36,517 nucleotides of DNA from an uncultured Methylococcaceae bacterium. Its GTDB lineage: Bacteria; Pseudomonadota; Gammaproteobacteria; Methylococcales; Methylomonadaceae. Shown here in pieces: positions 11,983-14,103 of this stretch; the first letter of the stretch is position 1, and every line of letters starts with the position of its first letter. The notes below the pieces were generated by a model that saw nothing but the letters and a program-made list of their open reading frames with translations, was not told where the DNA came from and made no database searches. Made by a program: the position numbers and the translations under genes. Location: NCBI GenBank assembly GCA_903927955.1, contig CAIYOW010000017.1:1-36517 (forward strand), written 5' to 3'.

Positions 11983-12909
11983 TCACACCCGCTCCGCCAC
12001 ACGCATAACCGCGCTTCGTGAGCGGGCATTAATGGCGATTTCACTTGGACTTGCTTTGATAGCCTTGCCCACTTTTTTCAAAGCTCCTTTGTCTCGGTCT
12101 ACTTCTTTAATGGGCAGTTTGCCCAAGTTGAATTTATTGCCTGATTCATCACGGATAAATCGTTTGACTATGCGGTCTTCCAGAGAATGGAATGAAATGA
12201 CCACCAAGCGGCCTTGTGGCTTCAGTACTTGCACGGATTGCTGCAAGGCTGCCGCCAACTCATCCAGTTCGTGATTAACTGCTATGCGAATCGCTTGAAA
12301 AGTGCGTGTTGCAGGGTGCTTATGTTGTTCCTTAATGGGCACGGTGTCCTCAACCAGTTTTGCCAGCTCTAGCGTGGTTTTAATGGGGGCATTGATTCTG
12401 CGCTCAATGATTGCGGCGGCAATTCTCCTGGCAAAGCGCTCTTCGCCGAAATCAAACAGCACCTTGACCAAGGTTTTTTCGTCAACAGTTGCCAGCCAAT
12501 CTTGGGCGGACAGACCGGTTGTGCAGTCCATACGCATATCCAATGCCCCGTTGCGCATAAAGCTAAATCCCCTTTCCGGTGTGTCCAATTGCGGGGATGA
12601 AACGCCCAAGTCCAATAATATGCCGTCGACCTGTCCAGTCAGCCCGGCTTTTTCAATTTCGTCAGCCATGCTGGAAAACCAGCAATGTGATAATGTGAAT
12701 CGGTTGTCCTTGTTTAAGGTGCTGGCGTATTCTGAGCAGATGGCATCACTATCCCGATCGAAAGCCAGTAAGCGCCCTTCAGCCCCCAATTGCCCGAGAA
12801 TGGCTTGGCTGTGACCGCCGCGACCAAAGGTGCAGTCAAGATAAATGCCGTTTGCCGCTATTGCTAAATGCCGCAATGTTTCCGCCAGCATGACCGGTTG
12901 ATGTTCCAT
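11983..12909 (-). CDS. rsmH: 16S rRNA (cytosine1402-N4)-methyltransferase RsmH
   Basis: RsmH (MraW) methylates N4 of C1402 in 16S rRNA, the same nucleotide whose ribose is methylated by RsmI encoded nearby. The SAM-binding segment GIYLDCTFGRGGHSQAIL is near the N-terminus, followed by LLDLGVSSPQLDTPERGFSFMRNGALDMRMD, ATRTFQAIRIAVNHELDEL and LVVISFHSLEDRIVKRFI. I prefer the ATG at 12909 (MEHQPVMLAETLRHL, 308 residues). The track start at 12918 is a GTG three codons upstream (MPKMEHQ) and cannot be excluded. It is 14 bp after mraZ. Confidence 0.96.
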   Translation of the reverse strand: MEHQPVMLAETLRHLAIAANGIYLDCTFGRGGHSQAILGQLGAEGRLLAFDRDSDAICSEYASTLNKDNRFTLSHCWFSSMADEIEKAGLTGQVDGILLDLGVSSPQLDTPERGFSFMRNGALDMRMDCTTGLSAQDWLATVDEKTLVKVLFDFGEERFARRIAAAIIERRINAPIKTTLELAKLVEDTVPIKEQHKHPATRTFQAIRIAVNHELDELAAALQQSVQVLKPQGRLVVISFHSLEDRIVKRFIRDESGNKFNLGKLPIKEVDRDKGALKKVGKAIKASPSEIAINARSRSAVMRVAERV

Positions 12910-12923
12910 TTTAGGCACCGTTA

Positions 12924-13394
12924 TCAGAAAGACAGGTTGCCCAGTTCTGCGAGCCCCTCATCCGAGCCTTCGCCATTGAAAAAGTCGTTTTCTTTGGCAG
13001 TGAACGCCTCTTCGTTCCAAACCTCAAATTTTTCGCCCAAGCCTACCAGAACAATTTTTTTGTCCATTTGCGCATGTTTTCTGAGTTTTTCGGGCAATAG
13101 CAGCCTGCCTTGGCTATCCATTTCGCATTCTGTGCCATTGCCAATAAAGAAGCGCTTTAGATTGATGGCGGTAGGGTTAAGTGTGGGCAGGGCATTGATA
13201 GTTTTTTCTATCCGTTCCCATTCGGTTTCGGGATAAAGCCACAAGCAGCCTTTTTCGCTGGCGCAGCGCTGGTCCATAGCGATGCTCACGACCAGTTTAC
13301 GGTTACAAATTAGCTGCAATTCATCACGGTACTTGGTCGGAATTGCAAAGCGGCCTTTGTCGTCGAGATTGATTGAATTTGTGCCGCGAAACAA
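12924..13394 (-). CDS. mraZ: Transcriptional regulator MraZ
   Basis: MraZ is a DNA-binding AbrB-like protein that forms a ring and represses the dcw promoter by binding phased TGG-type repeats. Two SpoVT/AbrB-type repeats are visible: FRGTNSINLDDKGRFAIPTKYRDEL at the N-terminus and FIGNGTECEMDSQGRLLLPEKLR in the second half, each with the conserved D.(K/Q)GR core. The 156-residue length is standard. The start is TTG (leucine codon read as Met), fixed by the conserved MFRG start, with GGAG 7 nt upstream; a weak start may limit MraZ level. It heads the dcw operon, and a likely MraZ operator lies immediately upstream. Confidence 0.96.
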   Translation of the reverse strand: MFRGTNSINLDDKGRFAIPTKYRDELQLICNRKLVVSIAMDQRCASEKGCLWLYPETEWERIEKTINALPTLNPTAINLKRFFIGNGTECEMDSQGRLLLPEKLRKHAQMDKKIVLVGLGEKFEVWNEEAFTAKENDFFNGEGSDEGLAELGNLSF

Positions 13395-13403
13395 AATGCT
13401 TCT

Positions 13404-13465
13404 CCACTGCCGCCATAAAAAACCAAATTAGTGCAAAATACGCCATTATTTTCCATTTGTCGCCA
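13404..13465 (-). promoter_or_regulatory. Probable MraZ operator: 10-bp-phased TGG boxes
   Basis: On the minus strand TGG occurs at 13465, 13455, 13445, 13425 and 13415, all in exact 10-bp register (the register position at 13435 reads TGC), with one more TGG at 13406, out of phase by one base. The first three read TGGCG-N5-TGGAA-N5-TGGCG. E. coli MraZ is known to bind TGGGN repeats separated by 5 nt in its own promoter. Here the array begins at the last base of the -10 hexamer and covers the start site and leader, a repressing position. Assignment to MraZ is inference from geometry and location. Confidence 0.75.
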
Positions 13466-13493
13466 CTATAGAGTTATGCGGCTTGATAGTCAA
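13465..13493 (-). promoter_or_regulatory. Sigma70 promoter of the dcw operon (mraZ promoter)
   Basis: Reading the minus strand, TTGACT (13493-13488) is separated by 17 bp from TATAGT (13470-13465), each hexamer one mismatch from consensus. Transcription should start near 13457, giving a leader of about 60 nt before the TTG start of mraZ. No other comparably strong promoter is seen inside the dcw genes I read, so this could be the main promoter for the whole 13-kb cluster. Confidence 0.8.
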
Positions 13494-13756
13494 GAGGCTT
13501 TTTAGATGGAATCTTGCTTTTTTGACAATGACTTAGCAGATTTTTGCTGGGGTAACCCTAGGGGCGCGACAAGGCAGGGCAAATCTTATTGTTTTTCAAA
13601 ATGTTGAATTATTTGTAACGGTCTTGCGTTGGCGGACGTGTCTAGGTGTGGTTGCGTCCGAAGGCAAGAAAAACTTGGGTTGATAGGGTAAGTGCGGTGT
13701 GGCGGGAATAAATGGGGAGTAAATCTGTAGGTAAAACAAAGGCAAATAAGAAAAAG
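13494..13756. other. Intergenic region between dcw promoter and rnpB
   Basis: Together with the promoter and operator this makes a gap of about 360 bp without a protein gene. It contains T-rich sequence just 3' of rnpB on the minus strand, a CCCTAGGG/GGTTACC palindromic patch near 13545-13560 and no convincing ORF; the track's overlapping 60-70 aa ORFs here extend into the RNase P RNA and have no protein character. I see no strong intrinsic terminator, so some read-through from rnpB into the dcw promoter region is possible. Confidence 0.5.
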
Positions 13757-14103
13757 AAAGAGTTGGCCTGTAAGCCGGGTTCTGTCGAGAACAGCCATTC
13801 ATCTAGGCCGCAAGTCACCCTGCGGCTCAAGCAATCTACCCGGGAACCGCGCGGGCCACGCGTCTGTCCCCCTATTTGATCTTGCTCCGGGTGGGGTTTG
13901 CCATGCCACTTCTGTTACCAGTCGCGCGGTGCGCTCTTACCGCACCTTTTCACCCTTACCAACCTTGCGGCGGCGGTTTATTTTCTGCGGCACTTTCCGT
14001 AGGCTCGCGCCTCCCAGGCGTTACCTGGCACCCTGCCCAGTGGAGCCCGGACTTTCCTCCATTTTATCAAGCGATAAAACAGCGGCTGTCCAGCCAACTC
14101 TTT
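13757..14103 (-). ncRNA. rnpB: RNase P RNA (bacterial type A)
   Basis: RnpB is the catalytic RNA of RNase P, which matures tRNA 5' ends. On the minus strand the highly conserved 5' segment GGAGGAAAGTCCGGGCTCC (14060-14042) is followed by CAGGGTGCCAGGTAACGCCT, then AAGGGTGAAAAGGTGCGGT and TAAGAGCGCACCGC, GGTAACAGAAGTGGCA, CACCCGGAGCAAGATCAAATAG, and the 3' ATGAATGGCTG and AGAACCCGGCTTACA elements. The ends pair as an 11-bp P1 helix: AAAGAGTTGGC (14103-14093) with GCCAACTCTTT (13767-13757), which I used to set the boundaries (about 347 nt). The rsmI-rnpB-mraZ position is common in gammaproteobacteria. Confidence 0.97.

Follow-up and report, generated by a model that had tools for sequence, protein, structure and literature searches.

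The window, a 36,517-nucleotide stretch of DNA (contig CAIYOW010000017.1) from the 2.94-Mb genome of an uncultured Methylococcaceae bacterium, carries a dcw cluster on its minus strand. The order on that strand is rsmI, RNase P RNA (13755–14101, between rsmI and the dcw cluster), mraZ, rsmH, ftsL, a gene for an ftsI-like penicillin-binding protein, and mur genes. mraZ (12924–13394, minus strand) begins with TTG and encodes 156 residues, the presumed regulator of the TGG-box operator described below. Its product matches Pfam PF02381 twice (58.1 and 51.9 bits) and NCBIfam TIGR00242 with 130.9 bits, above the curated cut-off of 98.35, which places it in the MraZ family with the two MraZ/AbrB-like repeats; it is 95% identical to the protein of its nearest named relative, likewise an uncultured Methylococcaceae bacterium, so that the genome belongs to a lineage of gammaproteobacterial methanotrophs. 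It also matches MraZ chains in the PDB, in the recent entries 9qlr, 9sx6, 9sz7, 9qlg and 9r4j. The contact between ring and box may already be visible in these structures; our literature search found no paper on them. The first dcw gene downstream of mraZ is rsmH (mraW; 11983–12918, minus strand; TIGR00006).

The TTG start of mraZ (13392–13394, minus strand) is common in the methanotroph family of this genome (29 of 31 leaders) and in its order (15 of 19), and is found in 16 of 125 other leaders. Two enzymes that methylate C1402 in the 16S rRNA decoding site are encoded by rsmI and rsmH, between which mraZ is located, and an E. coli mraW mutant is altered in non-AUG initiation, as cited in PMC8475190. 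Feedback on mraZ through its TTG start codon is conceivable for these two reasons.

The mraZ promoter and its TGG boxes

The mraZ promoter is of the sigma-70 type and was read directly from the minus strand: a −35 hexamer TTGACT at 13488–13493, a 17-bp spacer, and a −10 hexamer TATAGT at 13465–13470 that is kept in relatives. TTGAC with a 17-bp spacer is present in all 31 family leaders. Downstream, counted from the last base of the −10 hexamer, TGG occurs at offsets 0, 10, 20, 40 and 50, TGC at 30, and a further TGG at 59. Direct reading agrees with the positions in the earlier note, which had TGG at 13465, 13455, 13445, 13425, 13415 and 13406 and TGC at 13435, and with its statement that the array begins at the last −10 base (TATAGT runs from 13470 to 13465, and the first TGG starts at 13465).

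Boxes were scored with a model trained on leaders from outside the order. Box 0 (13463–13465, minus strand, as are all boxes; ATAGTGGCGA, 7.8 bits) overlaps the last −10 base and carries the GTGG core of the consensus AAAGTGG. Box 1 (13453–13455; CAAATGGAAA, 6.0 bits) and box 2 (13443–13445; ATAATGGCGT, 4.7 bits) occupy the canonical +10 and +20 slots. The TGC in the place of box 3 (13433–13435) is degenerate, scoring −3.8 bits, below background. Box 4 (13423–13425; AATTTGGTTT, 4.3 bits) is followed by six Ts, and box 5 (13413–13415; TTTATGGCGG, 1.7 bits) is weak. In boxes 1, 2 and 4, which score between 4.3 and 6.0 bits, A or T replaces the G that precedes TGG. The array thus contains more than the three direct repeats with TGG/GTG core and 10-bp period that mark MraZ sites, and it departs from one box per turn, since slot 3 is TGC and slots 4 and 5 follow; contiguity is typical of described MraZ sites and is not a known requirement. 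The TGG at 13406 was considered as a sixth box and rejected, because it belongs to the Shine-Dalgarno sequence TGGAG (13402–13406, minus strand), which precedes the TTG start at 13394 by 7 nt. The count is therefore five boxes and not six, and box 3 is no better than background.

Five of six slots are filled, while shuffling the 130-nt leader 20,000 times with dinucleotides preserved never filled more than three, which puts the chance of such an array in this leader below 1 in 20,000. A search of the 2.94-Mb genome for the exact five-TGG pattern gave a single occurrence, and its mirror control pattern gave none. Three TGGs at 10-bp spacing give 59 matches genome-wide versus 28 for the reversed control. 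Among the 30 of these 59 that were scored, the mraZ site ranks highest; the second-best (L093) lies inside a 539-residue reading frame.

A 23-bp element, TAAGTCATTGTCAAAAAAGCAAG (13513–13535, minus strand), begins 42 bp upstream of the −35 hexamer. It is present in 28 of 31 leaders of the family, 7 of 22 of the order and 48 of 104 others, mostly at distances of about 40–42 or 50–52 bp, one helical turn apart. The strict pattern has one copy per genome in matching relatives, adjoining mraZ where this was compared, and it persists in one family member (G028) that has lost mraZ. It may serve the dcw promoter as an activator or UP-type site.

Dependence of the array on mraZ in related genomes

The comparison set comprised 183 distinct mraZ leaders drawn from the family, order, class and phylum. 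TGG pairs exactly 10 bp apart numbered 333 in these leaders versus 17.1 in shuffles, and pairs at 9 and 11 bp were at background level. In 115 leaders from outside the order, mostly gammaproteobacterial, the slots +10, +20 and +30 from the −10 hexamer hold TGG in 88, 81 and 71 cases, respectively; the slot of box 0 retains TG in 71 of 88, where a fourth box overlaps the −10 hexamer itself, and in 29 of 30 family leaders. The box learnt from leaders outside the order, AAAGTGGG (A-A-A-G-T-G-G-G), is the published MraZ box, and the usual gammaproteobacterial operator has boxes at 10, 20 and 30. In E. coli, too, the leader has these three boxes, cagTGGgaaattgTGGggcaaagTGGg. Long runs are not peculiar to the window, as runs of five TGGs, each exactly 10 bp from the next, also occur in six other leaders (L116, L119, L128, L148, L191 and L193). 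The earlier note's description of the array as longer than usual stands for the family as a whole, although such length is not unique.

Genomes lacking an mraZ match provide a natural comparison. There are 29 of these, and rsmH is retained in 19. TGG triples at 10-bp spacing were found in none of the 19 regions upstream of rsmH, versus 120 of 183 mraZ-bearing leaders (Fisher, 9e-9), even though the 620 bp searched before rsmH is longer than the mraZ leaders and so makes triples easier to find. Since most of these regions have lost their homology to mraZ leaders, two members of the family itself are the sharpest cases. G028 (L226) keeps the promoter TTGACTAAG...CTATAGT and G027 (L236) keeps TTGACTATT...TTATAGT; in both, the mraZ promoter now stands before rsmH and the array is gone, with a single AAAAGTGG retained at offset 20 in G028. 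Loss of the array together with mraZ is the behaviour expected of a site that would be maintained only for MraZ. In G028, promoter and rsmH are still some 300 bp apart, which amounts to a natural mraZ deletion.

Together, the chance test, the register across 183 leaders, the match to the box consensus and the absence of the array from mraZ-less relatives support the assignment of the window array as a putative MraZ operator that covers the start site and leader. It sits at the promoter of mraZ, the first gene in the mraZ-rsmH-ftsL-ftsI cluster, and shares place, box consensus and 10-bp register with E. coli and most of the 183 leaders. The operator identity that the earlier note had proposed is borne out by these features and by the loss of the array where relatives lost mraZ.

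Described MraZ sites are similar in kind. Autorepression of the cluster by MraZ is reported for E. coli and Mycoplasma genitalium (PMC8475190). The E. coli operator, in the account of Eraso et al. 2014 given in PMC8475190, resembles that of the window in its TGGGN boxes, 10-bp period and position just downstream of the promoter, and differs in having three contiguous boxes with neither a skipped turn nor a distal box. In Burkholderia cenocepacia, a fragment with four repeats across the start site was bound by MraZ in EMSA (PMC7761207); the PmraBc site likewise consists of 7-nt repeats with 3-nt spacers downstream of the −10 and overlaps the start site, but its four repeats are contiguous, whereas the five TGGs of the window are spread over six turns and interrupted by a gap. 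In Mollicutes, MraZ is described as binding (AAAGTGKN3)3 as an octamer (Fisunov et al. 2016, as summarized in PMC5282649 and PMC8475190). That site, (AAAGTGKN3)n, shares the 10-bp direct repeats and GTG core and differs from the window in being contiguous and in accepting either G or T (K) as the third core base. The Mollicute HsdC controller site (PMC5282649) likewise spans the −10 and the start site with direct repeats that have a GTG core; its repeat spacing is off by 1 nt, and it controls restriction-modification genes. The window has no link to HsdC.

A spacing variant in the methanotroph family

We aligned 30 family leaders and 88 others on box 2 and compared the distal slots. TGG at +10 from box 2 (box 3) is present in 9 of 30 family leaders versus 70 of 88 elsewhere (p ~2e-6), and TGG at +20 or +21 (box 4) in 22 of 30 versus 21 of 88 (p ~2e-6); for box 5 the counts are 11 of 30 and 9 of 88 (p = 0.003). 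Within the family, 3 leaders have both box 3 and box 4, 6 have only box 3, 19 only box 4 and 2 neither (p = 0.003), and this mutual exclusion is absent outside the family (p = 0.76). Where box 3 is lost, TG often persists one base beyond its slot (37% at +11 versus 1% elsewhere). Spacing over two turns also depends on what lies between: in all leaders, TGG pairs with a TGG in the middle are 20 bp apart in 162 cases and 21 bp in 29, whereas pairs with none between are 21 bp apart in 38 cases and 20 bp in 27 (Fisher, 6e-11). The p-values for the family shift and the spacing ignore shared ancestry and overstate independence, because family members are related.

In the window, the operator takes the gapped form: box 4 stands exactly 20 bp past box 2, and a weak fifth box follows. 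In the sister genome (L004) all six turns are filled, at 0, 10, 20, 30, 41 and 51, with TGG in slot 3, and the distal box lies at 41–43 in most family members. An exact 10-bp phase, whose conservation the earlier note had raised, does not hold for the distal boxes of related leaders. The skipped box 3 is a common variation in the methanotroph family. The Methylococcales operator is of a known kind, in a lineage-specific spacing variant; as far as the leaders indicate, it has been stretched, usually through the decay of one repeat and the gain of another one turn beyond it.

Alternative readings and a model for the operator

It is unlikely, though by no means far-fetched, that only boxes 0, 1 and 2 form the MraZ operator and that the TGGs at 13425 and 13415 reflect chance or belong with the T-run, the ribosome-binding region or some other element of the leader. 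The low scores of the distal boxes would fit, as would the off-register positions in the sister and the wide sharing of the T-run after box 4 among leaders. Against this, TGG recurs 20–21 bp past box 2 in the family far more often than elsewhere and tends to replace box 3, and G028 has kept both promoter and T-run while losing the TGG of box 4.

Loss of the array with mraZ argues against a very improbable alternative, that the GG tracts of the non-template strand fold into a G-quadruplex like the one proposed at the Staphylococcus aureus mraZ promoter. A G-rich motif downstream of PmraZ in that organism is reported to fold as a parallel quadruplex, and similar motifs are reported in other bacteria (PMC11796246); however, the tracts in the window comprise two Gs with 8- and 18-nt loops, and a quadruplex needs neither strict 10-bp spacing nor an AAAG flank. 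The S. aureus motif, called 'conserved' in other bacteria, is perhaps the MraZ box array itself, and the motif mutations of PMC11796246 may have struck MraZ boxes. We consider it just as improbable that the repeats act in RNA, as a structured leader or a translation control element. Most of the array is transcribed in the leader and extends to the Shine-Dalgarno sequence, but RNAalifold returned no common structure for the family leaders, leader folding energies equal those of shuffles (mean z −0.06), and box 0 overlaps the −10 hexamer, ahead of the expected start site. RNA structure in the leader was rejected on the first two grounds.

We consider it very likely that the array as a whole is an autoregulatory MraZ operator whose distal part has been re-spaced in the methanotroph family. 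Its boxes, register, conservation, dependence on mraZ and family-level shift are established, and from them we infer that the MraZ of this genome binds the array, that it represses, and that proximal and distal boxes are occupied together. MraZ, the product of the first gene to be transcribed, would bind the TGG-centred boxes, which recur once per helical turn along a single face of the DNA, beginning at the last −10 base and running across the start site into the leader. Bound there, it would compete with RNA polymerase and limit open-complex formation or escape, and would thereby set the levels of itself, rsmH, ftsL, ftsI and the genes behind them. The sign may instead be activation, since deletion of mraZ in Neisseria elongata lowered dcw transcription (PMC9395523).

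In the re-spaced distal part, box 4, two turns after box 2, would substitute for box 3. Because box 3 is worn and a box two turns past box 2 replaces it, the MraZ oligomer would bridge one empty turn; the conserved box exchange points to a ring reaching across it to boxes 4 and 5. We tentatively extend this to MraZ rings in general, as a possibility that falls somewhat short of an even chance: contiguous boxes follow 10.0 bp per turn as if wound on a ring, whereas a skipped turn takes about 21 bp, near the natural twist. The family standard would then be a third box exchanged for one on the fourth turn, and an operator of five to six turns might give graded repression.

MraZ is among the most widespread regulators of bacterial cell division, but the way in which its ring recognises an operator of direct repeats is understood only in part. 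The natural series of operators described here, with contiguous, missing and displaced boxes and with relatives that lack mraZ, shows which contacts matter and supplies constructs that are ready for testing. Because Methylococcales attract interest for methane removal and in biotechnology, their dcw promoter is of practical use as well.
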